A stretch of DNA of 43,510 nucleotides from an uncultured Rhodobacterales bacterium. Lineage in GTDB: Bacteria > Pseudomonadota > Alphaproteobacteria > Rhodobacterales > Rhodobacteraceae. A program made the position numbers and the translations under genes. Positions 10,882 through 27,389 of this stretch are shown one piece after another. The stretch spans positions 1 to 43,510 of the forward strand of contig CAIQOV010000053.1 in the NCBI GenBank assembly GCA_903873585.1, read 5' to 3'. Numbering within the stretch: position 1 is the first letter of the stretch; each line of letters starts with the position of its first letter. The notes beneath the pieces were generated by a model. The model searched no databases. It was not told where the DNA came from and worked only from the letters and a program-made list of their open reading frames with translations.

Positions 10882-10972
10882 TTTCGCATTTGAGGTGTTT
10901 TTGAGGGGATTTGCAACTATCGCGCAGACCTTCCTTTCGGCAGTCATAACCAACCCCAAACCGGAGCCTGAT
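10882..10972. promoter_or_regulatory. Divergent promoter region of the LacI-type regulator and dioxygenase
   Basis: This is a 91-base gap between two divergent starts. TTGCAAC near 10911 also occurs upstream of the lactonase (8793) and could be a shared operator half-site. A GGAG sequence at about 10962 is the ribosome site for the dioxygenase ATG at 10973. No strong inverted repeat is visible. Confidence 0.35.
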
Positions 10973-12139: not shown

Positions 12140-12149
12140 GGACGCCCAG

Positions 12150-12989: not shown

Positions 12990-13595
12990 TTACACACCCG
13001 CAGGGTTTTCCACATCGGCCCCAATCGCCGCCAAATCGGCATAACGGTCCCCAATGCGGTGATGCGGGCGCCCACCGGTAGAGGCCCCAAGGGCTACAAC
13101 CAGTTCGTCATGCGCCGGCGCATCGGGGATTGAAAACTGCACGGTCAGATAGTGCGAGCGTCGACCGCCATCGTTCTTATCCATCAGCGGAATCTGGATC
13201 TGCGTGTTGGCCGGACCGCGCCCGTTGGTGAAGCCCAGATAGGTCTTGGCCCCCACTGCCTCGCGGTAGAAATTGCCAAACCGCAGGGTGTGGATCAAGG
13301 CTGATCCGTGTTCAAGCTCGGCATCGGTGCCCGCCATCGACGCTTTGCCATAAGCCTCAATCGCGTCGCCCGATCCGGCGAGGGCCACCAGCATATCAGT
13401 CAGCATCTTGCCCAAAACGGGGGCGATGCGGGTGATTTCAGGCGACAGGTCTTGCACAAAGCCGCGCCCGTGCCACGGGTTTTTCACCACAGCCGCCACG
13501 CCGATCATGCGCAGCGGCGGGTCAGCGGGGCGCTGGCCTTCGCGGTAGATGATTTCGTCATAGGTCACGACCTTGCGCAATTCGGGAAACATCAT
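12990..13595 (-). CDS. Amino acid synthesis (AA_synth, PF06684/DUF1185) family protein
   Basis: A 201-residue member of the AA_synth family, recognised by RKVVTYDEIIYREG, RMIGVAAVVKNPWHGRGFVQDLS, YGKASMAG, ELEHGSALIH and GGRPHHRIGD. Known structures of the family show a variant of the Bacillus chorismate-mutase fold, also related to RidA-like trimers; the biochemical role is not established despite the name. It is the last gene of an operon with RidA, an alpha/beta hydrolase and the CoA-transferase/flavin-reductase fusion. In this setting it may handle an unstable imine, carbamate or amide intermediate. Two adjacent ATGs (13595 and 13592) follow AGGAGA; either could be used. Confidence 0.85.
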   Translation of the reverse strand: MMFPELRKVVTYDEIIYREGQRPADPPLRMIGVAAVVKNPWHGRGFVQDLSPEITRIAPVLGKMLTDMLVALAGSGDAIEAYGKASMAGTDAELEHGSALIHTLRFGNFYREAVGAKTYLGFTNGRGPANTQIQIPLMDKNDGGRRSHYLTVQFSIPDAPAHDELVVALGASTGGRPHHRIGDRYADLAAIGADVENPAGV

Positions 13596-13605
13596 CTTCT
13601 CCTGT

Positions 13606-15696
13606 TCAGGCCCCGCTCAGGCGGCGCACTTTTCCTTCGGTTTCATTGCCCTGATAGATGCCAAACTCGCCACTTTGGGTTTCATCCGCGTAGCGTTGCA
13701 GCATGCTGCGTTCGGCTGGATTGCGCATGGCGGCCCAATCCAAGGTGGTCAGCGGGCAAAACGCCATGCCCTTGGGGGCGGGGCCTTGCACCTGACCGTG
13801 GTAATAGATGCCGTGGCTGGCTTTGGCGCGATCTTCAAAGACCGCATAAAGGAATTCGACATCGGCGTGCAAGCCTAGGGCGGTCAGGCGGCTGCGCAAA
13901 CGGTCAATGCCGGGGTTGGGGTGGGGCGACAGGGGCAGGGTCAAACCGCCGTCGGCTGCCACCTCCATCAGAACCGCACCGTCCTGCAGCAGCACCGCGC
14001 CCACGCTGGCCCCCGCTGTCGATGCGACCGCCTGCACCAGTTGCGCATCCGCCTCGACCGAGAAGTAGCGGCCACGGTAATACCCCAAGGGCGCGCCTTC
14101 GCCTGTGACAAATTCGACCACACGGCCAATCAGCACCAGATGGTCGCCCGCATCAACCAAGCGGTCGGGCACGCAGACAAACTGCGCCAAAGACCCGTCC
14201 AGCAGCGGCACATGGCCCGCGCCTTCGTGCCAAGCGCAGCGCTGGAACTTGTCCACTTCGCGTGAGGCGAAGAGCGCCGACAGAGCCTGTTGATCTTGGC
14301 CCAGAATGTTCACCCCGAAATGATCGGCCTGCATGAAGGTTTCACACGAATGCGCCGTTTTGGCCAAGCAAACCAACAGCAATGGCGGGTCGAGTGAGAC
14401 CGAGGTGAACGAATTCGCCGTAAACCCGCGCGGCGTGCCATCGGCTTGGCGGGCCGTTAGCACCGTCACCCCCGTGGCAAAACGCCCAAAGGCATCGCGC
14501 AACTGGCGCGGATCAATGGCGGGCTGCGGGGATAGGAAATCTTGCGCTGACTGTGCGCCCAAGCGGGCGGGGGTGGCGGGCGCAGGGCTGGGATTGGCCG
14601 AAAACCGCAGCGGCGTGGCCGCAACCCGCCAAGGCCGCAACCCCGCCTCGGCATGGGGTACAGTGGCGATCATGCCGCGCGCGGCGACATGGGGGTCGGC
14701 GAAAATGTCGGCGACCGAGTTGACAGGGCCAAAGGGCACCAAGCCGCCCAGCACCGCGCTTAATTCTGCCTTGGTCAGCGCGGCGGCCCATTCGGCCACC
14801 ATCGCATTCAGCACCCCCGCATGAATGCGCCGCGCACCGCGTGTGGCAAAGCGCGGGTCGGTGGCCAAATCACCCTGCCCCATCGCCCGCGCCAAGGCGC
14901 GCCAAAAGGCGTCGTCCACAATGCCAATCGCTACATGGCCATCTTTGGCCGCAAAGATGCCAAAAGGGGCCAGCAGAGGGTGGGCGTTGCCTTCAGGGGC
15001 GGGAATGGAACCGTCAAAATCGTGCTGATAGATCAAGCGTTCACACAGGCTGATCATCGCGTCATACATGGCGATGTCCAAGAACTGCCCGCGCCCTGTT
15101 GCCTCGGCCTGCCGCAAGGCGGCCATAATGCCAAAAGCCATCAGCGCGCCGGCAAAGACATCGCCAATGCCGGGGCCAACCTTGGTCGGATGGGCAGCAT
15201 CCGCCCCCGTCACCCCGATCAACCCGCCCATGGCTTGGGCCACCACATCGTAAGACGGCCAATCCGCATAGGGGCTTGCCCCCGAAGACGGATCACCAAA
15301 GCCCCTGATCGCCGCATGAACCAAACGAGGATTGGCGGCTGACAGTACGGCGTAAGACAGGCCCAGCCTGTCCATCACCCCGGGTCGGAAGTTTTCCACC
15401 AACACATCCGCGGTTTTGACCAAGGCCAACAGGTCAGCGCGCCCTGCTTCAGCCTTCAAATCCAGCACAATGCTTTTCTTCGACCGGTTCAGGCTGACAA
15501 AATACCCCGCCCAGTCGTGGTTCGGGTCATCATCGCGGAAAGGGCCGTTGGTGCGACTGCTGTCGCCCTCGGCCGGTTCGATCTTGATCACTTCCGCGCC
15601 CTGATCGGCCAGCATCATGGTGCAATAGGGGCCAGACAGCATCCGGCTAAGGTCAAGCACCCGCAGGCCCGACAGGATGCCTTTTGCGTCAGTCAT
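13606..15696 (-). CDS. Fusion: CaiB/BaiF CoA-transferase + flavin reductase + C-terminal domain
   Basis: A single 696-residue frame with three parts. Residues 1-390 form a CaiB/BaiF (class III) CoA-transferase: LRVLDLSRMLSGPYC, ADQGAEVIKIEP, LVENFRPGV, and the likely catalytic Asp179 in GPGIGDVFAG. Residues about 393-550 form a flavin reductase: FATGVTVLTA, TANSFTSVSLDPP, FGVNIL and GDHLVLIGRV. Residues 551-696 are an uncharacterised tail (GIYQGNETEG near its end) that I recall at the end of some two-component flavin reductases. The fusion joins CoA chemistry to reduced-flavin supply, presumably for the LLM monooxygenase encoded at 18634-19665. The start overlaps the hydrolase gene by 8 bases. 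I see no frameshift at the junction. Confidence 0.88.
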   Translation of the reverse strand: MTDAKGILSGLRVLDLSRMLSGPYCTMMLADQGAEVIKIEPAEGDSSRTNGPFRDDDPNHDWAGYFVSLNRSKKSIVLDLKAEAGRADLLALVKTADVLVENFRPGVMDRLGLSYAVLSAANPRLVHAAIRGFGDPSSGASPYADWPSYDVVAQAMGGLIGVTGADAAHPTKVGPGIGDVFAGALMAFGIMAALRQAEATGRGQFLDIAMYDAMISLCERLIYQHDFDGSIPAPEGNAHPLLAPFGIFAAKDGHVAIGIVDDAFWRALARAMGQGDLATDPRFATRGARRIHAGVLNAMVAEWAAALTKAELSAVLGGLVPFGPVNSVADIFADPHVAARGMIATVPHAEAGLRPWRVAATPLRFSANPSPAPATPARLGAQSAQDFLSPQPAIDPRQLRDAFGRFATGVTVLTARQADGTPRGFTANSFTSVSLDPPLLLVCLAKTAHSCETFMQADHFGVNILGQDQQALSALFASREVDKFQRCAWHEGAGHVPLLDGSLAQFVCVPDRLVDAGDHLVLIGRVVEFVTGEGAPLGYYRGRYFSVEADAQLVQAVASTAGASVGAVLLQDGAVLMEVAADGGLTLPLSPHPNPGIDRLRSRLTALGLHADVEFLYAVFEDRAKASHGIYYHGQVQGPAPKGMAFCPLTTLDWAAMRNPAERSMLQRYADETQSGEFGIYQGNETEGKVRRLSGA

Positions 15697-16483
15697 GCGT
15701 CACCTTGGTCAAAAACGCCAAAAGCGGCGCGTTGGTAAGATCGGGCGCTTGCATCAAGGCCATATGCCGCAAGCCGGGCAAGATCAGCGTTTGCGCGCCT
15801 GCAATTTCGGCGGCGATGGCAAAGGTCATCTCTGGCCCGTTGCCATAGTCTTCATCGCCCGTCACCACCAGCGTGGGGCAGGCAATGGGCGGGTTGGGCG
15901 CGACAATCTCGTCAATGCCGGTGGCCAAGATGCGGTAATAATCGGGATAGGTCGCCGGATTGTTGCCCAGCACCCAGCCGCGCACTTTGTTCATCATCGC
16001 GGGGTTTTGGGCGCGGAACTCATCGGTGAACCAACGCAGCAAGGCGGCTTCGACCGTGGCAGACGGCCCTTGGCTATCTGCCTGCATCACCCGCGCCGCA
16101 ATGGCCGCTTGCGCCGCATCAGAGCGGCGATGGGGCGAATGCAAAATGGCCAGCGCTTGGGTGCGGGCCGGATAATCCTGCGCAAAGCGGCGCGCGATCA
16201 TGCCGCCCAGCGAAAAGCCCACAAGGGCGGCTTTGTCGCGGCCCAGATGATCCAGCAAAGCCGCCAGTTGCGCTGCCAAAGCCGCCAGATCGGGGTTGGG
16301 TTGCGAGGGCGTTTGCCCATGCCCAAGCATATCATAGGTCAGCACACAAAACTGCGGCGCAAGGGCGCGAACCATTTGGTCCCACACGTCATGCGTTAGA
16401 CCCAAGCCGTGGATCAACACGACCAAAGGCGCATCCAAGCGCCCATGCAGCGCATAGGCTGTGCCGTCAGGGGCGCGCTTCAT
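15689..16483 (-). CDS. Alpha/beta hydrolase, PcaD/RutD-like
   Basis: A 264-residue alpha/beta hydrolase. LIHGLGLTHDVW supplies the oxyanion region, GFSLGG the nucleophile elbow (Ser91), VTGDEDYGNGP the acid and GLRHMALMQAP the His. It resembles 3-oxoadipate enol-lactonases and RutD. The ATG at 16483 overlaps the TGA of the RidA gene by 4 bases, and its end overlaps the start of the fusion gene, so it is tightly coupled to both. Possible roles are hydrolysis of a product of the flavin monooxygenase, or release of betaine from betainyl-CoA, since no dedicated thioesterase is in the window. Both are inference. Confidence 0.85.
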   Translation of the reverse strand: MKRAPDGTAYALHGRLDAPLVVLIHGLGLTHDVWDQMVRALAPQFCVLTYDMLGHGQTPSQPNPDLAALAAQLAALLDHLGRDKAALVGFSLGGMIARRFAQDYPARTQALAILHSPHRRSDAAQAAIAARVMQADSQGPSATVEAALLRWFTDEFRAQNPAMMNKVRGWVLGNNPATYPDYYRILATGIDEIVAPNPPIACPTLVVTGDEDYGNGPEMTFAIAAEIAGAQTLILPGLRHMALMQAPDLTNAPLLAFLTKVTHD

Positions 16484-16884
16484 AGGCCACCCTTTACCAA
16501 GGGGCGCCAAGCGACCACCTCTACCTCGACCCGACAATCAACCAACAGGTCGCTGACGATAGCCGAACGTGCGGGGGGATCGTGGGGGAAATATTCGCCG
16601 TACACCGCATTAAAGCCGCCAAAATCGGCACGCTCGCGCAGCCAGATCATCGCCTTGACCACATCTGCGCGTTCACATCCCGCCAAGGCCAGCGTGGCGG
16701 TGATATCCTCCAGCACGGCGCGGGTTTGCTCTTCAATCGTGCCGGTCGTCATGGGCACGCCGTTTTGCATCGGGATTTGGCCGGTCAAATACACCGTATC
16801 GCCCGCCCGAATAGCGCGCGACAAAGACAGTTTGCGCCCACCGATGACCAAAGGCTCGCCAATCACTTGTTTTCGATGGGTCAT
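16480..16884 (-). CDS. RidA/YjgF/RutC-family protein
   Basis: A 134-residue RidA-fold protein. Family members hydrolyse enamine/imine intermediates; RutC acts on aminoacrylate in pyrimidine breakdown. Conserved features are VYLTGQIP, TRAVLEDITATLALAGC, VVKAMIWL, FGGFNAVYGEYFP, PARSAIV (the Arg that binds carboxylate in RidA) and VEVEVVAW. The ATG at 16884 is preceded by GGAG on the minus strand. It opens the four-gene minus operon and diverges from the aldehyde dehydrogenase across 141 bases. Placement with a hydrolase, a flavin reductase and a nearby LLM monooxygenase is reminiscent of the rut operon. Confidence 0.9.
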   Translation of the reverse strand: MTHRKQVIGEPLVIGGRKLSLSRAIRAGDTVYLTGQIPMQNGVPMTTGTIEEQTRAVLEDITATLALAGCERADVVKAMIWLRERADFGGFNAVYGEYFPHDPPARSAIVSDLLVDCRVEVEVVAWRPLVKGGL

Positions 16885-16956
16885 TTCGTCCTCCGCGCTT
16901 GGGGGTAGCAGACACCGCCCCCTTCCCACCGCTTGCGCTTTTTTCGTCAAGCCACG

Positions 16957-17001
16957 GCGAAAATTCGCACATGTTGCAAGCGGTCTGTCGCAGAGTATGC
17001 T
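16957..17001. promoter_or_regulatory. Candidate operator and promoter between RidA and aldehyde dehydrogenase genes
   Basis: An inverted repeat GCGAA-AA-TTCGC lies at 16957-16968; its core CGAAAATTCG resembles CGAAATATCG at 18564-18573 upstream of the LLM gene. On the + strand TTGCAA (16974-16979), 16 bases, then TATGCT (16996-17001) forms a moderate promoter 25 bases before the aldehyde dehydrogenase ATG. A regulator binding the repeat could control both directions. Confidence 0.38.
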
Positions 17002-17025
17002 GGCAGGGAACCAGAGGGCAAGCAG

Positions 17026-18507
17026 ATGAGCGCGATCAAAGATTACCAGATGCTGATAGACGGGGCATGGGTTGGGGCATCGGATGGCAAGATGTTTGAC
17101 AGCGTCAACCCGACCACGGGGCAGGTTTGGGCGCGCATTCCGCAAGCCACGGCCCAAGATGTTGACCGCGCCGTGCAAGCCGCCCACCGCGCCTTTACCA
17201 GCGGGCCATGGGCCAGCATGACCCCCACGGCGCGCGGGCGCTGCTTGCGCAAGTTGGGCGATTTGTTGGCAGAAAAGTCGGAAAGCCTTGGGCGGACCGA
17301 AACCATCGACACCGGCAAGATGCTGAAAGAAACCCGCTGGCAGGCGAAGTATATCGCGGAATTCTTCCACTTTTACGCCGGTTGCGCTGATAAGATTTCG
17401 GGCGAAACCCTGCCCATCGACAAGCCTGACCTGTTCGTTTTCACCAGCCGTGAACCTTTGGGCGTGGTGGCGGCGATTGTGCCGTGGAACTCGCAATTGT
17501 TTTTGGTCGCCGTGAAGCTGGGCCCTGCCTTGGCGGCTGGCAATACGGTGGTGCTGAAAGCGTCAGAGCACGCCTCGGCCGCGATGCTGGAATTTGGCGA
17601 GCTGATCGAAGCGGCAGGGTTTCCCGCCGGTGTGGTCAACATCGTGTCGGGCTTTGGCGAACCGTGCGGGCGGGTGCTGACGTCGCATCCCTTGGTGGCG
17701 CGCATTTCCTTTACCGGCGGGCCGGGGGCGGCGCGGGCGGTGCTGACCAATTCGCGCGAGAATTTCGCCGAAGTCTCGCTAGAACTGGGCGGCAAATCGC
17801 CGTTCATCGTGTTTGACGATGCTGACATTGACAGCGCTGTAAACGGATCTATCGCGGGGATTTTTGGCGCTACAGGGCAAAGTTGTGTGGCAGGATCGCG
17901 GCTGTATCTGCACGAAGACATTGCGGACGAATTCTTGGCAAAGATCGTGACGCTGGCCAAACAAATCCGCATCGGCGACCCTTTGGCCGAAGACACCCAG
18001 ATGGGCCCACTGTGCACCCAAGGCCAGTTGGCGAATATCCAGCGCGAGGTGGCCCATGCCCAAACCGAAGGCGCGACCATTTTGTGCGGTGGCAAGCAGC
18101 CTGATGGCATGGGCGGCACCTATTACGAGCCCACCATCGTTGACTGCCCGCGGCAAGACCTGCGGATTGTGGACACCGAACTGTTCGGCCCCGTCCTGTC
18201 AGTTCTGCGCTTTAAGACCGAGGCCGAGGTGATCGCCCTTGCCAACGATACCCAGCACGGCCTTGCCGCTGGCATCTTCACCCGTGACGGGGCGCGCCAA
18301 ATGCGCATGGCCAAGGCGGTGCGTTCCGGCATCGTTTGGGTCAACACCTACCGCGCCGTTTCGCCCATCGCGGCGTTTGGCGGTGTGAAAGGGTCGGGTT
18401 ATGGCCGCGAAAGCGGGTTTCAGGCGATGTATGATTACACGCGGGCGAAAACCGTGTGGATCAACACCTCGACCGAGCCTATGGCCAACCCCTTTGTGAT
18501 GCGCTGA
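17026..18507 (+). CDS. NAD(P)-dependent aldehyde dehydrogenase
   Basis: A 493-residue ALDH of normal length. Key residues are present: Asn155 in VPWNSQ, Lys178 in VLKASEHAS, Glu253 in LELGGKSPF and the catalytic Cys287 in GQSCVAGSR. The closest groups by eye are betaine-aldehyde, aminobutyraldehyde and similar dehydrogenases. Beside carnitine-type genes, candidates for the substrate are 4-trimethylaminobutyraldehyde, malic semialdehyde or succinic semialdehyde, but nothing in the sequence decides. The ATG at 17026 has only a weak ribosome site, with upstream in-frame codons back to 16933 lying in the promoter. It is followed by a strong hairpin and then the LLM gene. Confidence 0.9.
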   Translation: MSAIKDYQMLIDGAWVGASDGKMFDSVNPTTGQVWARIPQATAQDVDRAVQAAHRAFTSGPWASMTPTARGRCLRKLGDLLAEKSESLGRTETIDTGKMLKETRWQAKYIAEFFHFYAGCADKISGETLPIDKPDLFVFTSREPLGVVAAIVPWNSQLFLVAVKLGPALAAGNTVVLKASEHASAAMLEFGELIEAAGFPAGVVNIVSGFGEPCGRVLTSHPLVARISFTGGPGAARAVLTNSRENFAEVSLELGGKSPFIVFDDADIDSAVNGSIAGIFGATGQSCVAGSRLYLHEDIADEFLAKIVTLAKQIRIGDPLAEDTQMGPLCTQGQLANIQREVAHAQTEGATILCGGKQPDGMGGTYYEPTIVDCPRQDLRIVDTELFGPVLSVLRFKTEAEVIALANDTQHGLAAGIFTRDGARQMRMAKAVRSGIVWVNTYRAVSPIAAFGGVKGSGYGRESGFQAMYDYTRAKTVWINTSTEPMANPFVMR

Positions 18508-18583: not shown

Positions 18584-18633
18584 CCACCGTTCGCTTCAAT
18601 CATCAGCCAAACGGGGCCTTGCCGGAGGATAGC

Positions 18634-19665
18634 ATGAAGTTCCAACTCGCCATCAATCTTGAACGGATGGATGACAGCCTTGATATGAAGGATGTCGCCC
18701 GCCACACGCTGGACATGGTCAAGATGGCCGATCAGGGCGGTTTCAACATCGTTTGGGCGGCGGAACATCACGCGCTGGAAATGACGATTGCGCCGAACCC
18801 GTTTTCGATCCTGACATGGTGGGCCGGTGAAACCGACCGCATCCGCCTTGGCACGGCCTGTGTGGCGGCGGCCTATTGGCACCCGATTAAAGTGGCGGGC
18901 GAAGCGGCGTTTGTTGACCTGATTTCCGGCGGGCGTTTGGAATTTGGCATTGGGTCGGGCGCTTATCAGCGCGAATTTGACCGGATGCACCCGGGCCTGA
19001 AGCAATCTGACGCGTGGCAATATATGCAAGAAATGCTGCCCGCCGTGCGCGCCCTGTGGCAAGGCGATTATGCGCATGAGGGACGGTTTTGGAACTTCCC
19101 CACCTCAACCGCGTGCCCCAAGCCTTTGCAAGCGGATGTGCCCGTGTGGATCGCCGCGCGTGCGCCCATCACCTATGATTATGCTGTGAAAAACGGCTGC
19201 AACATCATGTCATGGCCCCTGACCCGCGATATGTCAGAGGCGGAACTTTACATGGCGCGGATGGATGAAGCCATGGCCAACAACCCTGGTGCCAAGCGCC
19301 CCACCATGGCCATGATGCGCCACACGGCGGTGTCGGACCGTGCCTCAGACATCGTGCCGATCCGCGCCGCCCAGCGCCAGTTGTCGCAGTTTGAGAACCT
19401 GTTCAAGAACATGGGCGATGTGACCAACGGGTTCCCCAAGTCGATCCCGTTCGATCAATTGGGCAACCGCGCCGAATATGACCCCGAAATGCTGCAACGC
19501 AACTTGATGTTCGGCACACCGGATGAGGTGATTGCCAAGCTGAAACTGTATCAGGCTTTGGGCGTGGACGAGTTCATTTATTACGCAAGCCTAGGGCTGG
19601 GGCTGGCCGAACAAAAACGCTCGCTTGAGCTGTTTGTTAAAGAAGTGATGCCCGCTTTCGCCTAA
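18634..19665 (+). CDS. LLM-class flavin-dependent monooxygenase
   Basis: A 343-residue bacterial-luciferase-like TIM barrel. Diagnostic parts are FNIVWAAEHHALE (44-46, Glu-His-His), RIRLGTACV, HPIKVAGEAAFVDLISGGRLEFGIGSG and VPVWIAARAP. These enzymes use reduced FMN (or F420) and O2 to oxidise or cleave small substrates; RutA is one. The flavin-reductase half of the fusion protein at 13606-15696 is the obvious electron partner. The ATG at 18634 follows GGAGGA at 18624-18629. It heads a + operon with CaiD-like and carnitine-dehydrogenase-like genes, so a quaternary ammonium acid or its derivative is a reasonable but unproven substrate. Confidence 0.88.
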   Translation: MKFQLAINLERMDDSLDMKDVARHTLDMVKMADQGGFNIVWAAEHHALEMTIAPNPFSILTWWAGETDRIRLGTACVAAAYWHPIKVAGEAAFVDLISGGRLEFGIGSGAYQREFDRMHPGLKQSDAWQYMQEMLPAVRALWQGDYAHEGRFWNFPTSTACPKPLQADVPVWIAARAPITYDYAVKNGCNIMSWPLTRDMSEAELYMARMDEAMANNPGAKRPTMAMMRHTAVSDRASDIVPIRAAQRQLSQFENLFKNMGDVTNGFPKSIPFDQLGNRAEYDPEMLQRNLMFGTPDEVIAKLKLYQALGVDEFIYYASLGLGLAEQKRSLELFVKEVMPAFA

Positions 19666-19691: not shown

Positions 19692-20492
19692 GTGAGCCAT
19701 GTCGAAGTCACCCGTCGCGGGCGGGTTCTGGAAGTCAAACTGAACAAGCCCAAGGTCAACGCCATTGACGTGGCGATGAGCCAAGACATGGGTCGCGCCT
19801 TTGCTTTGCTGCGCGACGATCCTGATCTGTGGGTGGGCATTCTAACCGCCGACGGCGACCGCATCTTTTCCGCGGGCTGGGATCTGAAAGCGCTGAACGC
19901 GGGTGAGATGTCGCTGGATAACTGGTGGGAAACCGCCGATTACGGCATTGGCGGCTTTGGCGGGCTGACGGAAAACTGGCAGATGAACAAGCCGGTGATC
20001 TGTGCGCTCAACGGCATGGCGATTGGCGGCGGGTTTGAGATTGCCATGTCGTGTGATCTGATCATTGCCGCTGACCATGTGCATTTCGCCTTGCCCGAAA
20101 TGCCCCTAGGCATCGTGCCCGATGCAGGCGCTTTGCAGCGCCTGCCGCGCCTTATTCCGCGCAATATCGCCATGGAAATGCTGCTGCTGGGGCGCAAGAT
20201 GACAGCGGTGGAAGCCGCCCATTACGGCCTTGTCAACAAGGTTGTGCCCAAAGAAGCGCTGATGGAAACCGCTCGCGCTTGGGCTGACCAAATCGCAGGA
20301 TCAGCCCCCTTGGCGATGCAAACCGTCAAAGAGGTGGAACGCGCCATCCAAGCCCTGCCACTGGAAGCCGCGTTCAACCATATGCGCAAGGGCGATCTGC
20401 CCACCTACCGCGCCATGCTCAAATCCGAAGACTCGGCCGAAGGCATCGCGGCCTTTGTCGAGAAACGCAATCCCGTCTTTAAGGGGCGCTAA
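19692..20492 (+). CDS. caiD: CaiD-like carnitinyl-CoA dehydratase / crotonobetainyl-CoA hydratase
   Basis: A 266-residue enoyl-CoA hydratase family protein. It shares with E. coli CaiD, as I remember it, the blocks FSAGWDLKA, GGFGGLTE (CaiD GGFAGLTE), NGMAIGGGFE, FALPEMPLGIVPDAG, the SED-EG stretch (SEDSAEG) and the end EKRNPVFKGR (CaiD EKRDPVWKGR). Glu116 and Glu136 fit the catalytic pair. CaiD interconverts L-carnitinyl-CoA and crotonobetainyl-CoA. The start is GTG at 19692 after AAGGAAA; no better ATG is near. It follows the LLM gene by 26 bases and abuts the next gene. This is the strongest single pointer to carnitine/crotonobetaine chemistry in the window. Confidence 0.85.
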   Translation: MSHVEVTRRGRVLEVKLNKPKVNAIDVAMSQDMGRAFALLRDDPDLWVGILTADGDRIFSAGWDLKALNAGEMSLDNWWETADYGIGGFGGLTENWQMNKPVICALNGMAIGGGFEIAMSCDLIIAADHVHFALPEMPLGIVPDAGALQRLPRLIPRNIAMEMLLLGRKMTAVEAAHYGLVNKVVPKEALMETARAWADQIAGSAPLAMQTVKEVERAIQALPLEAAFNHMRKGDLPTYRAMLKSEDSAEGIAAFVEKRNPVFKGR

Positions 20493-21437
20493 ATGTATCC
20501 TGATCCCAAAACTGTCACCCGTGTCACCACCTTGGGCGCTGGCCCCATCGGCGGCGGGTGGGCCGCGCATTTTCTGGCGCGCGGCTATGATGTCACGGCC
20601 TATATCCATTCCGAAGCCGAAACGGCGGCGCTGATGTCGGTGATCAACACCGGTTGGATCAGCCTGCAAGCCTTGGGTCTGGCACCGGGTGCCTCATTGG
20701 ATCGGTTGCGGATTACCACCGATCTGGCCGATGCGGTCAAAGACGCGCAGTTCATTCAGGAAAGCGCGCCAGAGCGGTTGGACATTAAGCAGGCGCTTTA
20801 TAAGCGCTTGGGCGAACTGGCCCCGCGCGACTGTGTGATCGCCTCGTCAACCTCGGGGCTGATGATGACACAGATACAGGCCGATTGCCCCACACCCCAG
20901 CGCACCGTGATCGGCCACCCGTTCAACCCGCCCTATCTGCTGCCCTTGGTCGAAGTGGTGGGCGGCAAGGCGACCGAGCCTGAAGCAGTGGCTTGGGCGG
21001 TGGCGTTCTATGAAATTGCCGGCAAAGCGCCCTTGGCCATGAAGAAAGAAATCCCCGGTTTTGTCGCCACCCGCTTGCAAGAAGCCCTGTGGCGCGAGGC
21101 GCTGCACATGGTGGCGAACGGCGAGGCAACGCCCGCCGACATCGACAACGCCCTGATGAACGGCCCCGCCCCGCGCATGGCGGTTCAGGGCCAGTGCATG
21201 GCGTTCCATGTGGCTTGCGGTGAAGGTGGGATGGCCACCAACCTTGACCAATTCGGCCCCGCGCTGAAATGGCCGTGGACGCGCCTTGAGGCCCCCGAAC
21301 TGACGCAAGAGCTGCGCGACCGTATGGTGGATGGCTGCAACGAAATCGCCGCTGGCCGCCATTTCGAAGCCATGGCCGCCACCCGCGACCGCGAGATTGT
21401 CGCCGTGCTCAACGCCATCCGCGACGCGCGGCGCTAA
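20493..21437 (+). CDS. lcdH: L-carnitine dehydrogenase-like protein (3-hydroxyacyl-CoA dehydrogenase family)
   Basis: A 314-residue NAD-dependent dehydrogenase with GAGPIGGG (15-22) as nucleotide-binding loop, QESAPERLDIKQALY, the active-site region SSTSGLMMT and GHPFNPPYLLPLVEVVGG with the catalytic His. The length and the GHPFNPPYLLPLVE block match stand-alone L-carnitine 3-dehydrogenases, which make 3-dehydrocarnitine. Some homologues carry a C-terminal thioesterase domain; this one does not. The ATG at 20493 directly follows the TAA of the caiD-like gene, with AAGGGG as ribosome site. Its stop overlaps the stop of the convergent regulator gene. A general hydroxyacid or hydroxyacyl-CoA dehydrogenase is the alternative. 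Confidence 0.8.
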   Translation: MYPDPKTVTRVTTLGAGPIGGGWAAHFLARGYDVTAYIHSEAETAALMSVINTGWISLQALGLAPGASLDRLRITTDLADAVKDAQFIQESAPERLDIKQALYKRLGELAPRDCVIASSTSGLMMTQIQADCPTPQRTVIGHPFNPPYLLPLVEVVGGKATEPEAVAWAVAFYEIAGKAPLAMKKEIPGFVATRLQEALWREALHMVANGEATPADIDNALMNGPAPRMAVQGQCMAFHVACGEGGMATNLDQFGPALKWPWTRLEAPELTQELRDRMVDGCNEIAAGRHFEAMAATRDREIVAVLNAIRDARR

Positions 21438-22546
21438 AGGCGGCTTTTGCTCAAGACTTGAATGGGTTTGGCGCTGCCCCTGTTCTGCAAGGCTTGCAAG
21501 AATTTCGAAAGCGTCCCCGGCCAAGAGGGGGCGCTGTCTTTTTCGGGCCAAGCTTGGCGGTATTCGCTGGGCCTACGGCCAAAGCATTTGCCAAAGGAAA
21601 AGGCAAAATGCGACAGGGTGTTGAACCCCGATGCGGTGGCGATATCGCGCACTGACAGCGTGGTAGAAATCAGCAAAACCCGCGCGTGTTGCAACCGCAG
21701 CAGCAAGCCAAACTGCACCACGGTGCAGCCAATGGCCGCTTTGAACTGACGCTCCATCTGGCGCTGTGACACGTTCAGGGTGTCGGCGATGTCGGGCACG
21801 CTTAAGGGTTCGGTGATGTTCTTTTCGATCAGCTCAATCGCCGCGCGCACCATAGGGGGCAGCGTGTCGGTGCTGCGCCCCATCGTGCGGCGCTGCGGGG
21901 ATGTCGCGGGGCGGACGGGGTGGTGCATCAGTTGATCGGCAATCTCGCCCACCAAGCTTTCGCCCTGCGCCTCTCCGATCAATCGCAATACCAGATCAAC
22001 CCCCGCCAACCCGCCGCCACAGGTCATAAGCCCCGCATCTTGGGTAAATATCTGCTCGACAAAGGAAATGTCGGGGAATTGTTCCTGAAAGCCCGGCCCA
22101 TAAGACCAATGCGTTGTCGCCTTGCGCCCTGACAACAGGCCCGAACGGGCGACCAGATACGTGCCCAACTCTACCGCGCAAATCCGTGCGCCTTCGCGGG
22201 CTTGGCGGCGGATCCATGAAAACACCGTCTTGTTGGTGTAGCTTTCCGCCCCCCAACTGCCCATCACAAAGATCACCTCGCCGCGCCGATTACGTTCAAC
22301 AGGCAAGTGCGCGGGCAGCGACAAACCGTTGCTGGCGGTGATTTCGCCCCCGTCAAACGACACAATATCCCACGCATAAATCGGCTGCGGCGACAGGTAA
22401 TTCGCGATGCGCATCGGTTCAATCATCGTCACCAGCGTTGACATGTTAAAGCGCGGCACGATCAGGAAGGTCACCTGAAGCGGGGCGGAAATCTTCGGCT
22501 CGGCGGCTGCGAGATGATCTGGTTGCATGGTGCGATTTTTCGACAT
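21434..22546 (-). CDS. GlxA/CdhR-type AraC-family transcriptional regulator
   Basis: A 370-residue regulator. The N-terminal half is a DJ-1/PfpI-like sensor domain (VTFLIVPRFNMSTLVTMIEPMR, VMGSWGAES, and ICAVELGTYLVARSGLL where catalytic members would have Cys). The C-terminal 100 residues hold two AraC helix-turn-helix motifs (LSVPDIADTLNVSQRQMERQF and LSVRDIATASGFNTLSHFAFSF). This layout is that of CdhR/GbdR, regulators of carnitine and betaine catabolism. It diverges from the BKACE operon and converges on the carnitine-dehydrogenase-like gene, as expected for a local activator. The start is uncertain: ATG 22546 or ATG 22528, neither with a strong ribosome site. Confidence 0.85.
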   Translation of the reverse strand: MSKNRTMQPDHLAAAEPKISAPLQVTFLIVPRFNMSTLVTMIEPMRIANYLSPQPIYAWDIVSFDGGEITASNGLSLPAHLPVERNRRGEVIFVMGSWGAESYTNKTVFSWIRRQAREGARICAVELGTYLVARSGLLSGRKATTHWSYGPGFQEQFPDISFVEQIFTQDAGLMTCGGGLAGVDLVLRLIGEAQGESLVGEIADQLMHHPVRPATSPQRRTMGRSTDTLPPMVRAAIELIEKNITEPLSVPDIADTLNVSQRQMERQFKAAIGCTVVQFGLLLRLQHARVLLISTTLSVRDIATASGFNTLSHFAFSFGKCFGRRPSEYRQAWPEKDSAPSWPGTLSKFLQALQNRGSAKPIQVLSKSRL

Positions 22547-22624
22547 GGTTGCAGGATATGTGACGAATAAATGAAAGGAAACCGAAATCCAAAGCACAAG
22601 ATACGTTAAAAGCAGGAGGCGATG
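22547..22624. promoter_or_regulatory. Divergent control region between the GlxA-type regulator and the BKACE operon
   Basis: This AT-richer 78-base gap should contain promoters for both sides and probably the regulator's site. A CGAAAT half-site occurs near 22582, similar to half of the repeats at 16957 and 18561, but there is no full inverted repeat. AGGAGG at 22614-22619 is the ribosome site for the BKACE gene. Confidence 0.45.
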
Positions 22625-23515
22625 ATGAATTTTGATGTGGTGGTGACCTGTGCCGTAACTGGGGCTGGCGATACGACGGGCAAAAGCCCGCATGTCCCCG
22701 TCACCCCCGCCGAAATCGCGCGCGAAGCGATTGAGGCGGCTAAGGCGGGGGCATCGGTTGCGCATATCCATGTGCGTGATCCGGTGACGGGCAAAGGCTC
22801 TCGTGATCCCGCGCTGTTTCGCGAAGTGGTCGACCGTGTGCGCGCCAGCGGTACGGATATTGTCATCAACCTAACCGCCGGCATGGGCGGCGATTGGACG
22901 CCTGATCCCAACAACTGGGCCATGCCCGGCCCCGGCACTGATATGATCGGCCCTGACGAGCGTTTGGCCCATGTGAAAGATTGCCTCCCCGAAATTTGCA
23001 GCCTTGATTGCGGCACGCTGAATTTTGGCAATGACAACAGCATTTATATCTCGACCCCGCCGATCTTGCGGCGGATGGCGGCGCTGACCAAAGAGTGGGG
23101 GGTTAAGCCCGAACTTGAGGTGTTCGAACTGGGCCACATCCGCTTTGCTCGCGCCATGATGGACGAGGGGCTTTTGGCCGATCCGCCGATGTTCCAACTG
23201 TGCTTGGGCATTCCATGGGGAGCCGATCAAACGGTGGAAACCATGAAAGCCATGAAAGAACACCTGCCCCCCAACGCAAGCTGGGCCAGCTTTGGCATCA
23301 GCCGTATGCAAATGCCGATGGCCGCTGCGGCTGTGGCGCTGGGCGGCAACGTGCGCGTGGGGCTAGAGGATAACTTGTTTTTAGATCGCGGCGTTCTGGC
23401 GACCAACGCGCAACTGGTCGAACGGGTGATTGGCATCATCACCCGCATGGGCGCACGGGTTCTGACCCCGCAACAGGCGCGCAACAATCTGAAACTTCGC
23501 GGCGCGGACGCGTAA
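22625..23515 (+). CDS. BKACE (DUF849) beta-keto acid cleavage enzyme, probably 3-dehydrocarnitine-acting
   Basis: A 296-residue TIM-barrel BKACE. These zinc enzymes react a beta-keto acid with acetyl-CoA to give acetoacetate and a new acyl-CoA. The zinc ligands HxH (47, 49) appear in [30 protein letters not shown] and FELGHIRFA are other signatures. With dehydrocarnitine the product would be betainyl-CoA. The genomic partners (carnitine-dehydrogenase-like, CaiD-like, GlxA-type regulator) support that substrate. I chose the second of two ATGs, 22625, five bases after AGGAGG; 22622 would be too close. It is first in a + operon that continues into the ABC transporter. Confidence 0.87.
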
Positions 23516-23517
23516 AG

Positions 23518-24522
23518 ATGACAAACACCAGCGGCAGCCTGCATCTGAAGTCGCTGAGCAAACGCTACGGCGCTTTCACCGCTGTCGACAATATCGACCT
23601 GCACATCCAGAGGGGCGAGTTTCTCACCCTTCTGGGCCCGTCAGGGTCGGGCAAGACCACGTTGTTGATGATGATGGCGGGGTTTCAAGATATCACCTCG
23701 GGCGATATTTTGCTGGATGGCGCCTCGATCGCGCATACCCCTGCGGAAAAGCGCAATTTTGGCATGGTGTTTCAGGGCTATGCCCTGTTTCCCCATATGA
23801 CGGTGCAAGACAACATCGCCTATCCCCTATCTGTCCGCCACCGCCCCAAGGCCGAGATTGACGCCCGCGTGGCCGAGATGTTGGACCTTGTGCGATTGAC
23901 AGGCTTTGCCAAGCGCCTGCCCAAAGAGCTGTCAGGCGGCCAGCAGCAGCGCGTGGCCTTGGCGCGCGCCTTGTGCTTTGCGCCTCCGGTTTTGCTTTTG
24001 GATGAACCCTTGGGCGCTTTGGACAAAAAGCTGCGCATCGAAGTGCAGGCGCAGCTGAAAGACATCCACCAGCGCGTGGGCACCACCTTTGTCTATGTCA
24101 CCCATGATCAAGAAGAAGCGCTGTCGATGTCTGACCGCATCGTGATCATGCAAAACGGGCGCATCGAACAGGTGGGCACGCCGTCTGATCTGTATCAAAA
24201 CCCCAAAACCGCCTTTGCCGCCAGTTTCTTGGGCAAAAGCAACTTTTTGCACCGTGACGGCGCGGTTTTCGCGCTGCGCCCCGAAAAGATCGACCTTGCC
24301 CCCGAAGGCAAGGCAAGCGGTTCAAACAAGGTCACAGGCACGGTGCAATCGGTCACCTATTTTGGCGCGGTGCTGAAATATCAGGTCGATGTGCCCGGCC
24401 TAGACCTGATCGAGGTTGATGTTGACGCATGGCGCAGCGGGCAGGCTTTGCCCGCAGGCACGCGCGTGGATTTAACATGGGCCGATAGCGCGGCTGTGCG
24501 CCTGTCGGACCAAAGCCTTTGA
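23518..24522 (+). CDS. ABC transporter ATPase, polyamine/quaternary amine type (PotA-like)
   Basis: A 334-residue importer ATPase. Walker A GPSGSGKTT (40-48), the Q-loop in GMVFQGYALFPHMTV, the signature LSGGQQQR, Walker B LLLDEPLGALD and the switch His in YVTHDQEEALSMSD are all present; a C-terminal TOBE-type domain (from about residue 240) senses substrate or inhibitor. The type is that of spermidine/putrescine and related organic-cation importers. It starts 2 bases after the BKACE stop with no good ribosome site, so translation is probably coupled. Together with the binding protein and two permeases downstream it forms a complete importer, likely for carnitine, gamma-butyrobetaine or a relative. 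Confidence 0.92.
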   Translation: MTNTSGSLHLKSLSKRYGAFTAVDNIDLHIQRGEFLTLLGPSGSGKTTLLMMMAGFQDITSGDILLDGASIAHTPAEKRNFGMVFQGYALFPHMTVQDNIAYPLSVRHRPKAEIDARVAEMLDLVRLTGFAKRLPKELSGGQQQRVALARALCFAPPVLLLDEPLGALDKKLRIEVQAQLKDIHQRVGTTFVYVTHDQEEALSMSDRIVIMQNGRIEQVGTPSDLYQNPKTAFAASFLGKSNFLHRDGAVFALRPEKIDLAPEGKASGSNKVTGTVQSVTYFGAVLKYQVDVPGLDLIEVDVDAWRSGQALPAGTRVDLTWADSAAVRLSDQSL

Positions 24523-24533
24523 AACAAGCCCAA

Positions 24534-24590
24534 ACCGGGACCAACCCGGTGATGTCACAACAGGGCCCAAATGGCCCACAACAAGGAGGT
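24534..24590 (+). promoter_or_regulatory. Two small hairpins and a perfect ribosome site before the binding-protein gene
   Basis: ACCGGG (24534-24539) pairs with CCCGGT (24545-24550), and GGGCC (24563-24567) with GGCCC (24573-24577). AAGGAGGT at 24583-24590, an ideal Shine-Dalgarno, follows six bases before the ATG at 24597. Such structures can stabilise a processed mRNA, and would help make more binding protein than ATPase. Confidence 0.5.
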
Positions 24591-24596
24591 TCGAAA

Positions 24597-25703
24597 ATGC
24601 ACGACAAAAACTTCATGCGTGAGACACTTCTGCAAGGCGCGCAGGCTTTTCAGGCCGGCAAAATGGAGCGCCGCAGCTTTTTGGCGCTGTGCGGCATGGC
24701 AGGCTTTGCCAGCGCATCAGTGCTGGCCGGTCGCGCCGAAGCGGCGGCGGCGGAAATCGTGATGTGGAACTGGGGCGGCCAGTCGGAAGAATGCCACCAA
24801 AGCGCCATTGGCGCGGCCTTTACCAAAGACACCGGCATTCCGCTGAAATTTGACACTTCAGGCCCGTTGCAGGGCAAGATCAAAGAGATGGTCGATTCCG
24901 GCCATGTCACCGCCGACGTCTGCGACGCCGATCTGTTTGACGCTGTGGCCTTGGGCAAAACCGGCCACCTTGAGGCGCTGGATTATTCGGTGATCGACAA
25001 GACCAAAACCGTCGACGGCTATGCACTAGAGTTTGGCATTTCGATCATCCTGTACGGCTATGCCTTTATGTATGACACCCAAGCCTATCCCGATGGCCCC
25101 CCGACATCTTGGGCTGATTTCTTTGACACCGCCAAGTTCCCCGGCACACGTTCGCTGTACAAATGGGCCAACGGGTCGCTGGAAGCGGCACTGATGGCCG
25201 ACGGCGTGGAAAAGGATAAGCTTTACCCGCTAGATATCGACCGCGCGATCAAGAAGATCACGGCGATCAAAGCCGACACGATCTATTGGGGCTCGGGTTC
25301 CGAAGCGCATGACATGATCGTCAACGGCGAAGTGACGATGGGCATGGTTTGGCAAAACCGTGGCCGCAGCATCGAAACCGATACCAACGGGCGCTTCAAA
25401 CTGGTGATGAACCAAGCCTTGGCCATGCCGGGGGCTTACATTGTGCCCAAGGGCAATCCGGGTGGGGCGGACGTGATGAAGTTCATCGCCACCGCCCAAT
25501 CGGTTCCAGCCCAGCTTGACCTGTTCGCCTGCCTTGGCATGACGCCCACGAACCCCGAAGCGATTGCGCAGATGGCTGAAGTGGATCAGCCCTATTCGAT
25601 CACTTCGGCGGCCAATATGCCCTTGGTGGCGCTGAACGATCCGACTTGGTGGGGCGAAAATACCGATGCGGCTGTGAACGCCTTCTTGGCGGCGATCAGC
25701 TAA
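24597..25703 (+). CDS. ABC transporter substrate-binding protein, TAT-exported
   Basis: A 368-residue spermidine/putrescine-type (PotD-like) periplasmic binding protein. The N-terminus carries a twin-arginine signal: ERRSFLALCGMAG with Arg25-Arg26, then a hydrophobic stretch and an AEA-type cleavage site. The mature start EIVMWNWGGQSEE and later GYALEFGISIILYGYAFMYD, WADFFDTAKFPG and NPEA are typical of the group. The ATG at 24597 is set by the perfect ribosome site; an in-frame start at 24519 is far less likely. Aromatic residues that would cage a quaternary ammonium group are plausible, but I cannot place them without a structure. A strong terminator follows. Confidence 0.92.
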   Translation: MHDKNFMRETLLQGAQAFQAGKMERRSFLALCGMAGFASASVLAGRAEAAAAEIVMWNWGGQSEECHQSAIGAAFTKDTGIPLKFDTSGPLQGKIKEMVDSGHVTADVCDADLFDAVALGKTGHLEALDYSVIDKTKTVDGYALEFGISIILYGYAFMYDTQAYPDGPPTSWADFFDTAKFPGTRSLYKWANGSLEAALMADGVEKDKLYPLDIDRAIKKITAIKADTIYWGSGSEAHDMIVNGEVTMGMVWQNRGRSIETDTNGRFKLVMNQALAMPGAYIVPKGNPGGADVMKFIATAQSVPAQLDLFACLGMTPTNPEAIAQMAEVDQPYSITSAANMPLVALNDPTWWGENTDAAVNAFLAAIS

Positions 25704-25712
25704 ACCCTGCTT

Positions 25713-25748
25713 GCACCGGCAGGCCCCCTGTCCTGCCGGTGCCTTTTT
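25713..25748 (+). terminator. Strong intrinsic terminator inside the transporter operon
   Basis: GCACCGGCAGG (25713-25723) pairs perfectly over 11 bases with CCTGCCGGTGC (25732-25742), followed by CTTTTT. This is the clearest rho-independent terminator in the window. It stands between the binding protein and the permease genes, so read-through must be partial, giving excess binding protein over membrane parts. Confidence 0.88.
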
Positions 25749-25761
25749 ATAAGGTCTCCCA

Positions 25762-26601
25762 ATGCGCTTGCCTGTAAACTCTGGCTGGCTTTTGGTGCTG
25801 CCGTTCCTGCTTTTGGTGGGGGGGCTGTTCCTTGGCCCCATTTTGAACGTGCTGTGGATCAGCGTGACCGACCCCGCTCTGGGGCTGGAAAATTACGCGC
25901 AACTTGGCAGTTCCGACACGCTGCGCCGCATCTTGTGGACGACCCTGCGCGTCTGCTTGATTTGCACGGCCTTCAGCGTGGTCTTGGGCTATTGGATCGC
26001 TTACGCCATGGTTCATGCCAAAGGCCCTGCGCAAAGCCGGATGCTGGGGTTGCTGCTGGTGTCGTTCTGGATATCAGTTCTTGTGCGGACCTTTTCGTGG
26101 CTGATGCTGCTGGGCCGCAACGGGGTGGTCAATTCTGGCCTTGAATCCTTGGGCATCATCAGCGCGCCCATCCCCTTTATGCGCAACGAGTTGGGCGTTT
26201 TGATCGGCATGGTGCATTACATGGTGCCCTATGCCGTGCTGCCCATTTTCGCCGCGATGCAAAGCATTGACGGGCGGGTGGTGCAGGCCTCGCGGTCTTT
26301 GGGCGGCAGTGGTGCGCAGACGTTTTGGCGCATCTACCTGCCCCTGACCAAACCCGGTCTCGTTGCGGCATCGCTGTTGGTCTTTATCATCAACCTTGGC
26401 TTTTACGTCATTCCGGCGGTGCTGGGGGGCGGTAAGGTCTTGATGGTGGCGGAATATATCTCGGTTCAGGTCTTGGTGACGCTGCAATGGGGCACAGCCG
26501 CCATGCTGGCCGCGATCTTGCTGTTTGGCGTCTTGGCGCTGATGTTCTTGATGTCGCGCTTTATGAAACTGTCGACCGTGTTCGGGGGCGCGCGCACATG
26601 A
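25762..26601 (+). CDS. ABC transporter permease (PotB-like)
   Basis: A 279-residue membrane protein with about six hydrophobic helices, beginning WLLVLPFLLLVGGLFLGPIL. The cytoplasmic coupling loop with the EAA-like motif is seen in VVQASRSLGGSGAQTFWRIYLPLTKPGLVAA. It is the first permease of the polyamine-type importer. The ATG at 25762 follows a terminator and an AAGGT ribosome site. It ends in an ATGA overlap with the second permease. Confidence 0.9.
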   Translation: MRLPVNSGWLLVLPFLLLVGGLFLGPILNVLWISVTDPALGLENYAQLGSSDTLRRILWTTLRVCLICTAFSVVLGYWIAYAMVHAKGPAQSRMLGLLLVSFWISVLVRTFSWLMLLGRNGVVNSGLESLGIISAPIPFMRNELGVLIGMVHYMVPYAVLPIFAAMQSIDGRVVQASRSLGGSGAQTFWRIYLPLTKPGLVAASLLVFIINLGFYVIPAVLGGGKVLMVAEYISVQVLVTLQWGTAAMLAAILLFGVLALMFLMSRFMKLSTVFGGART

Positions 26602-27389
26602 AGCCCAGCCTTCCCGCCAAACTGAACACCGGCTTTGCTTGGGTGCTGCTGGTGGTGCTGATTGCGCCAGCCTTGGTCGCCATTCCGGTATCGCTGACGC
26701 CCAAAACTTTCCTATCTTTCCCGACAGACGAGCTTTCGCTGCAATATTACCGCGAGCTATTTTCCAGCCCAGAATGGCTGTCAAGCTTTTGGCAATCGAG
26801 CGTGATCGGCCTTTTGTCGACCCTGCTTGCCACCTCTATCGGCACGCTGTGTGCCATTGGCCTGTGGCGCGTATCGTCGCGCGCGGCCGAGGTGGTGCGT
26901 TCCGTTCTGCTCTTGCCGCTCGTCATTCCGCCGATCATCGCCGCCATGGCCTTTTCGCGCCTGTATGTGCCCTTGGGCCTGATTGACAGCTATACTGGCC
27001 TGATCTTGGCCCATACCGTGCTGTCGGCCCCCTTGGTGCTGATCACGGTGTCAGCCTCGCTTGCGGGGTTTGACCCACGGTTGGAACAAGCCTCGCGCAA
27101 TTTGGGGGCGTCAAACTGGGTCACCATGCGGCGGGTGATCATTCCGGGCATCAAACCGGGCATTCTGGCGGGTGCGGTATTTGCCTTTATCTCGTCTTGG
27201 GATGAAATTGTCGTCACGCTGTTTTTGTCGAAATTCAGCGTTTACACCCTGCCGCGCCGCATGTGGAACGGCATCCGCGAAAACACCGACCCAACCGTCG
27301 CCGCCGCAGCCGTTGTGCTGATGGCCGTCACCTTGGTGGCCTTTGCCATCTGGGCGCTGGCTTCGCGGCGGGCGAAATCTGCCGAATAG
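26598..27389 (+). CDS. ABC transporter permease (PotC-like)
   Basis: A 263-residue permease with about six membrane helices. The EAA-like loop is LEQASRNLGASNWVTMRRVIIPGIKPGI. It pairs with the PotB-like protein to form the membrane channel. The ATG at 26598 overlaps the preceding TGA; in-frame codons back to 26487 lie inside the preceding gene and are not the start. PYRRMWNG-like YTLPRRMWNGIRENTDP near the C-terminus is typical of PotC proteins. The acyl-CoA dehydrogenase gene begins 9 bases downstream. Confidence 0.9.
   Translation: MKPSLPAKLNTGFAWVLLVVLIAPALVAIPVSLTPKTFLSFPTDELSLQYYRELFSSPEWLSSFWQSSVIGLLSTLLATSIGTLCAIGLWRVSSRAAEVVRSVLLLPLVIPPIIAAMAFSRLYVPLGLIDSYTGLILAHTVLSAPLVLITVSASLAGFDPRLEQASRNLGASNWVTMRRVIIPGIKPGILAGAVFAFISSWDEIVVTLFLSKFSVYTLPRRMWNGIRENTDPTVAAAAVVLMAVTLVAFAIWALASRRAKSAE

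Follow-up and report, generated by a model that had tools for sequence, protein, structure and literature searches.

The closest described relatives of the gene cluster considered here come from the breakdown of trigonelline. According to an excerpt of PMC8269262, the trigonelline ring is opened by the oxygenase system TgnA/TgnB, which acts on trigonelline itself as the first step. Excerpts of PMC7913881 call TgnF homologous to HcdD, a protein of the DUF1185 family, and add that the stimulating effect described for TgnF was not seen with this homologue; a passage of PMC2954203 proposes that DUF1185 proteins take part in amino-acid metabolism. Among single proteins, SMa0793 of Sinorhizobium meliloti (PDB 3rh7, titled just 'putative oxidoreductase') has the same order of a reductase followed by a Nudix-like domain as the protein described below, but no CoA-transferase; an open-licence full-text search found no literature mention of it. 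The reductase of p-hydroxyphenylacetate 3-hydroxylase (NF045919, 5zc2) likewise combines a flavin reductase domain with an extra C-terminal domain, and succinyl-CoA:mesaconate CoA-transferase (NF041294) and L-carnitine CoA-transferase (CaiB, NF002914) share with the same protein the class III CoA-transferase profile and its aspartate.

The window, by which we mean the whole 43,510-nucleotide stretch of DNA that was analysed, is one entire contig from a 3.2 Mb assembly. An earlier note on this DNA had claimed one unbroken 696-codon frame holding a complete class III CoA-transferase and a complete flavin reductase, and the frame is indeed there on the minus strand, with an ATG start and zero internal stops (Table 1). 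The first domain matches CoA_transf_3 (PF02515) over profile positions 1–363 of 366 (cut-off 23.3 bits), and Asp179, which we take to be the catalytic residue from its position in formyl-CoA transferase, does not vary among the aligned fused copies (21 were counted; L118 was left out of the alignment; L and G numbers are our labels for loci and genomes). The second matches Flavin_Reduct (PF01613) at residues 403–547 over profile positions 1–152 of 153 (cut-off 27 bits), and its stretches N428-S429-F430 and D515-A516-G517-D518-H519 are invariant in the same 20 copies. Pfam gave no match at E <= 0.01 for residues 550–696. The label 'CaiB-type' that the earlier note had used holds for the superfamily and no further, in that the fused half scores 120 bits with the CaiB model, under its curated cut-off of 413, and 408 bits with the best model, that of succinyl-CoA:mesaconate CoA-transferase, under its curated cut-off of 700. 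On these sequence grounds the two halves are assigned to the class III CoA-transferases and, as a predicted reductase, to the two-component FMN reductases; both look functional, and each would be an active enzyme. Because the full-length structure model is poor (pLDDT 60.8, pTM 0.34), we make no statement on contacts between the domains.

Table 1. The fused gene, its parts and its neighbours, in coordinates of the window.
Feature	Position	Strand	Basis or remark
DUF1185 / AA_synth (PF06684)	12990..13595	(-)	221 bits
Fused gene: class III CoA-transferase + FMN reductase + Nudix-like tail	13606..15696	(-)	696 aa; at least 21 fused copies
Nudix-like tail, residues 549-696 (148 residues), without Nudix box	13609..14052	(-)	structure model and Foldseek
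Flavin (FMN) reductase domain, residues 397-548	14053..14508	(-)	PF01613, 144 bits; 3rh7, HPAH reductase 5zc2
Linker, residues 381-396	14509..14556	(-)	alignment; length and sequence variable
CoA-transferase domain, residues 8-380	14557..15675	(-)	Pfam PF02515, 409 bits
Asp179 codon of CoA-transferase domain	15160-15162	(-)	invariant in 20/20 aligned
Alpha/beta hydrolase	15689..16483	(-)	likely start by eye, inside longer ORF 15689-16537
RidA family protein	16480..16890	(-)	PF01042, 88 bits; start codon not fixed
Aldehyde dehydrogenase (ALDH)	16933..18507	(+)	profile match
LLM flavin monooxygenase, proposed FMNH2 user	18634..19665 (listed ORF 18619-19665)	(+)	PF00296, 180 bits
CaiD-like enoyl-CoA hydratase (ECH)	19692..20492	(+)	crotonobetainyl-CoA hydratase model, 312 bits, cut-off 500
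Carnitine-dehydrogenase-like 3-hydroxyacid dehydrogenase (HCDH), without canonical C-terminal extension	20493..21437	(+)	L-carnitine dehydrogenase model, 315 bits, cut-off 414
GbdR-like (GlxA/AraC family) regulator	21434..22771	(-)	ORF upstream end overlaps BKACE gene
Beta-keto acid cleavage enzyme (BKACE)	22622..23515	(+)	PF05853, 333 bits
ABC importer, four genes: potA, potD, potB, potC-like	23518..27389	(+)	potD (24519-25703) by profile; other names by eye
Acyl-CoA dehydrogenase (ACAD)	27399..28556	(+)	profile match
Acyl-CoA synthetase (ACL), NDP-forming type	28487..30652	(+)	profile match
Serine hydrolase, beta-lactamase family (PF00144)	30532..31776	(+)	homologue adjoins LLM gene in Rhizobiales clusters

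It is worth considering whether so unusual a chain could be a sequencing or assembly artefact; the earlier note had named read-level evidence of a sequencing error at the junction, together with the lack of the fusion in any other genome, as grounds for refutation. The search for other fused copies that it had proposed gave at least 21, with the window included and G106 and L042 entered once, and these come from different assemblies, isolates of Defluviimonas, D. aestuarii included, and Parasedimentitalea marina among them, the latter with its copy on the complete plasmid NZ_CP033221.1. At least 7 of 390 genomes of the order, its own included, match across both halves among the matches listed (all 390 belong to the same family), and 14 loci (L035-L047, L057) do so in the genome_contigs scan; at L045 the CoA-transferase is in frame with the reductase in one ORF. 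All three domains are under purifying selection. Pairwise dN/dS between the window and its near relatives L036, L047 and L037 is 0.05–0.11 for the CoA-transferase, 0.06–0.09 for the reductase and 0.10–0.23 for the tail, and against the more distant L040 and L045, where synonymous changes are near saturation, it is 0.13–0.16, 0.13–0.22 and 0.29–0.43, respectively; the linker, of 16 residues, is less constrained (0.11 to 1.05). These low values mean that the three domains are being kept, presumably as active units. Nothing was found in favour of an artefact, an explanation that we count as already refuted and to which we assign a vanishingly small probability; the fusion is genuine. A full-text literature search, confined to open-licence papers and hence no proof of absence, found no description of this domain combination. 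Since the one annotated fused record encountered, that of Parasedimentitalea marina (WP_127751231.1), is called just 'CoA transferase', the reductase half is hidden from name-based searches.

The C-terminal tail, which had been thought uncharacterised, turns out to resemble a Nudix protein. A structure model of the tail built from 16 sequences has a mean pLDDT of 85, and its best Foldseek matches in the PDB are 3rh7, followed by Nudix proteins such as 3cng, with a TM-score of 0.72 by query length; reductase and tail together align with 3rh7 almost end to end (301 residues, 210 bits). The Nudix box follows the pattern GX5EX7REUXEEXGU, and none of 49 tails contains it in strict or relaxed form. 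At the DUF1185-hydrolase-ALDH-reductase locus L110, a true Nudix protein encoded by a separate gene (PF00293, with the box) is 31% identical to the tail over 97 residues. Because the fold matches, the box is absent from all 49 tails and the L110 protein is similar, we call the tail, on its modelled structure, a degenerate Nudix domain. Having lost its catalytic box, it most likely binds a ligand or partner and perhaps gates the reductase, by an analogy that we draw from the C-terminal domain of p-hydroxyphenylacetate hydroxylase reductase as we understand it, a domain not homologous to the tail. The NF045919 profile of that reductase matches the fused protein with 162 bits over its first half, and because the match covers only profile positions 4–169 of 309, its extra domain is not shared.

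The fused gene, counted once, belongs to a cluster of 17 genes. On the minus strand the row runs RidA, alpha/beta hydrolase, fused gene, DUF1185; divergent from it run ALDH, the LLM monooxygenase, the CaiD-like hydratase and the carnitine-dehydrogenase-like enzyme, so that the earlier statement that CaiD-like and carnitine-dehydrogenase-like genes lie in the same locus was correct. There follow the GbdR-like regulator, BKACE, the four-gene ABC importer, ACAD, ACL and the PF00144 serine hydrolase. As judged from predicted gene functions, the cluster contains, next to its Tgn-like genes, a second set of the gamma-butyrobetaine/carnitine type, and it probably degrades a nitrogen compound.

Several observations support the view, already taken in the earlier note, that the reductase belongs with the LLM monooxygenase. 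For 18 of the 21 copies an LLM gene is present at the locus of the fused gene, and the other three genomes (L040, L042, L045) carry it elsewhere. When the nine genomes whose fetched locus lacked an LLM gene were examined together with that of L055, all ten had an LLM orthologue, with best matches of 74–81%. The LLM-ECH-HCDH row of Defluviimonas (L145, L146) is separate from the fused gene (L040, L042); in the L045 genome LLM stands without ECH and HCDH (L149). A search with the tail sequence matched 11 of 385 genomes in the class and 19 of 398 in the phylum, the window's own genome being counted in both; of the 24 other tail-matching genomes, 19 were mapped (G580, G893, G969, G1039 and G1095 were left out). 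At 14 of these 19 other Pseudomonadota loci the reductase-Nudix gene, free or (L099, L100) fused to the hydrolase, is accompanied by LLM, ALDH, alpha/beta hydrolase and DUF1185 genes; in L107 and L108 the DUF1185 gene is on the opposite strand at a distance of a few kb, and at L099, L100, L101 and L105 all four pot-type importer genes lie alongside. The five-gene set is absent from the remaining 5 mapped loci: L110 and L111, which have a short reductase and a separate Nudix protein and in which no LLM gene was found, and L113, L114 and L115, where none of the other four module genes was found. At L113, a 39% identical CoA-transferase and an acyl-CoA dehydrogenase lie some 3–4 kb away on the opposite strand. 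L073, from the window's own reductase clade, also stands alone.

We think it likely that the fused protein is a bifunctional enzyme whose two halves serve different steps of one catabolic pathway. The C-terminal half would reduce FMN with NAD(P)H as the reductase component of a two-component monooxygenase resembling TgnAB; free FMNH2 would pass to the LLM monooxygenase, whose gene lies 3 kb off on the opposite strand and which may open or oxygenate an N-heterocyclic or quaternary-amine substrate, and the ALDH, alpha/beta hydrolase, RidA and DUF1185 proteins would process the product. The N-terminal half would be an active class III CoA-transferase moving CoA between acids, as donor and acceptor, of the same pathway, to which ACL, ACAD, the CaiD-like hydratase, the carnitine-dehydrogenase-like enzyme and BKACE would also belong. 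The halves may have been joined as neighbours in one operon, the gain being co-production or co-location. Such a reading gives the fused protein a testable job. A tighter coupling had been supposed in the earlier note, in which an acyl-CoA made or released by the CoA-transferase goes straight to the LLM monooxygenase, itself supplied with reduced flavin by the fused reductase. The presence of both halves in one chain with the LLM gene nearby, and of CaiD-like and carnitine-dehydrogenase-like genes in a row after it, would suit such a transfer. However, the five-gene module occurs without a nearby CoA-transferase at L055, L071 and the same 14 of 19 loci, and for this reason the handing over of a CoA ester is not supported; in the genomes of L055, L071 and L072, the CoA-transferase paralogues found elsewhere are only 37–43% identical. 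Likewise, the reductase is joined to a hydrolase instead in four loci, and the nearest described system, TgnA/TgnB, first acts on trigonelline itself according to the excerpt of PMC8269262. We therefore hold direct handing to be quite improbable.

The bifunctional reading brings the locus close to the Tgn system, and it is informative to see where the likeness ends. The window holds reductase, LLM, ALDH, alpha/beta hydrolase and DUF1185 genes together, a set of the Tgn kind, as does L122 of Acinetobacter baumannii. There, the genes around the five-gene row are those of a GntR regulator, an NCS1-type permease and a succinate-semialdehyde dehydrogenase (SSADH) above the TIGR01780 cut-off, along with unassigned ORFs. 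Rhizobium ruizarguesonis has the five-gene row and an annotated SSADH, and an SSADH is present in both L122 and L125. The layout of the tgn genes that Perchat reportedly described in 2018 for Acinetobacter baylyi is of the kind seen in these operons, and it is from that reported layout that we take the Acinetobacter and rhizobial operons to be tgn. The window differs in that its LLM protein is only 39% identical to that of L122 (39–49% to those of the operons in L119 and L121-L125), and in its additional RidA, CoA-transferase, ECH, HCDH, BKACE, ACAD and ACL genes. Moreover, one ALDH only and no SSADH was found among the profile-searched ORFs of its cluster (10.9–31.8 kb, minus three transporter ORFs). 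Because the LLM identity to L122 and L125 is only 39–43% and no SSADH was found beside it, trigonelline was not adopted as the substrate of the window's system. An open-licence full-text search for trigonelline with luciferase-like protein and flavin reductase found nothing. Homarine was likewise set aside: the PMC8269262 excerpt considers action of TgnA/TgnB on this compound unlikely, and a literature search found no gene set for it.

The carnitine-type genes raise the question of whether two unrelated pathways, one of gamma-butyrobetaine/carnitine type and one Tgn-like, simply lie side by side here, with the fusion an accident of gene order and no shared metabolism. Three Rhizobiales contigs (L139 with L048, L141 with L051, L143 with L054) carry the complete set in rearranged form, the serine hydrolase, LLM, ECH, HCDH, regulator, BKACE, importer, ACAD and ACL genes leading directly to ALDH and a RidA-hydrolase-CoA-transferase-DUF1185 row; the 17-gene cluster is thus exposed whole in the window and on these contigs, and in other Rhodobacterales loci its parts were seen only within the fetched length. 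This contiguity indicates that both gene sets belong together, and LLM, ECH and HCDH form one gene row. It is true that L055 and L071 have the LLM set without carnitine-type genes nearby, that the genomes of L055, L071 and L045 have no window-type carnitine dehydrogenase, and that the L045 genome also has no window-type BKACE, though the fusion is present. Against this, the window's own genome has elsewhere a second, canonical-looking gamma-butyrobetaine/carnitine set (identity to the window's proteins: BKACE 55%, carnitine dehydrogenase 36%, ACAD 53%, ACL 40%, ECH 44%), so the set in the window is probably specialised. Hence we regard two separate pathways as unlikely.

The dehydrogenase of the second set has an extra C-terminal domain, presumably the thioesterase of canonical carnitine dehydrogenase, and the window's enzyme is without it; window-type dehydrogenases have 313–366 aa at 19 of 20 loci, the exception being a longer open frame at L139. 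We suggest that the CoA-transferase takes over CoA recycling. That the CoA-transferase goes strictly with the window-type dehydrogenase was rejected, as the presence of a close CoA-transferase and that of the dehydrogenase agree in only 6 of 8 genomes: L045 has the fusion without the dehydrogenase and G380 the dehydrogenase without a close CoA-transferase. Staying with a bifunctional enzyme in one pathway, we offer a more specific version that is speculative and, taken as a whole, possible rather than probable. Here a pathway not described so far might couple FMN-dependent ring opening of the Tgn type with a CoA cycle of the carnitine type. Its substrate would be a betaine carrying a heteroaromatic or cyclic quaternary nitrogen in place of the trimethylammonium of gamma-butyrobetaine; the CoA-transferase half might replace the thioesterase domain and supply the incoming acid with CoA taken from the BKACE product, and the reductase half might then drive the opening of the freed betaine.

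The history of the fusion can be followed in loci mapped by tblastn. When 60 CoA-transferases were placed on a tree, those that are fused (20 rows, without L069) formed one clade (99/95), whose sister is a group of seven unfused CoA-transferases from the same kind of gene cluster (99/94). All seven adjoin the hydrolase, and DUF1185 comes next in six. In L053, the seventh, the end of the CoA-transferase gene and the beginning of the reductase gene share 4 bases, which supplies the separate but adjacent parts that the earlier note had proposed to look for; this reductase is 56% identical to the window's, the contig ends inside it, and the overlap is the arrangement one step before fusion. In the Rhizobiales relatives, the CoA-transferase is a separate gene, and 3 of 6 loci (L048, L049, L052) have a separate, short and distant reductase (32–34%) downstream of DUF1185; no reductase was found in the mapped stretch of L050, L051 and L054, that of L050 being a contig of only 3.5 kb.

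The reductase-plus-tail tree (49 rows) places the window type in one clade of 26 (100/98), to which belong, besides every one of the 21 CoA-transferase fusions, four free copies and a single hydrolase fusion. On this tree, fusion to the CoA-transferase requires three changes, at least two of them forced by starred branches; the character is shared by a Rhodobacterales lineage but must have been lost in places or gained a second time. Four loci (L072, L099, L100, L119) have the reductase fused to the alpha/beta hydrolase in place of the CoA-transferase, as in the in-frame, 579-aa protein of G380 (L072), with no CoA-transferase beside it, and in Mesorhizobium amorphae WP_006205510.1. The hydrolase fusions need two changes, both forced by starred branches, and are most simply read as two gains. 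The fusion partner in each case is the gene found ahead of the reductase in related operons; given the four loci with a hydrolase in that place, the partner follows gene order, and the best reading is that CoA-transferase and reductase were joined as operon neighbours. A flavin reductase has, in different lineages, been joined to whichever enzyme comes before it in the operon, be it a CoA-transferase or an alpha/beta hydrolase.

The reductase and its Nudix-like part are common to two kinds of fusion, one to the CoA-transferase and the other to an alpha/beta hydrolase, the latter occurring at L072 (genome G380), L119 (Mesorhizobium amorphae) and, likewise joined in frame, at L099 and L100.

Features in the window, its genome and related loci
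Feature	Coordinates	Strand	Remark
Alpha/beta hydrolase + reductase + Nudix-like protein	L072:9561-11300	minus	one frame
Alpha/beta hydrolase + reductase + Nudix-like protein	L119:7158-8945		one frame
Second gamma-butyrobetaine/carnitine-type gene set	G000:C25:5572-12863 (L154)		canonical-looking; window's own genome
Rieske ring-hydroxylating oxygenase	L053:4306-5463	minus	top NCBIfam model is that of glycine betaine monooxygenase GbcA, whose cut-off the score does not reach
PhyH-type dioxygenase + short-chain dehydrogenase genes	window 10859-12962		adjoining cluster

At L110 and L111, where the LLM flavin monooxygenase gene was not found, the row runs DUF1185-hydrolase-aldehyde dehydrogenase (ALDH)-short reductase, then carboxymuconolactone-decarboxylase-like and GntR-like regulator genes (both assigned by eye), along with a stand-alone Nudix gene, its Nudix box confirmed for L110; a pot-type importer accompanies both rows. 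At L053, which has an unfused CoA-transferase, the Rieske oxygenase follows ALDH, the position held by the LLM gene in Rhodobacterales, and the LLM orthologue sits on a different contig.

Among loci mapped around CoA-transferase/reductase relatives, only L035 and L036 showed close copies of the PhyH-type dioxygenase and short-chain dehydrogenase beside the cluster.

Two Defluviimonas loci (L147, L148) hold a second LLM copy, in the row reductase-ALDH-LLM-DUF1185-hydrolase. Assigned by eye, without profile search, the neighbours at L147 are glycine-betaine-type (ProV/ProX) transporter-like, TPP enzyme-like, ureohydrolase-like, MttB-like methyltransferase and sarcosine/dimethylglycine-dehydrogenase-like. 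On Agrobacterium fabrum pAt (L123), an LLM 49% identical to that of the window is accompanied by reductase, ALDH, hydrolase, DUF1185, carboxymuconolactone decarboxylase and NIPSNAP genes, with annotated glycine betaine/proline ProX transporter genes nearby.
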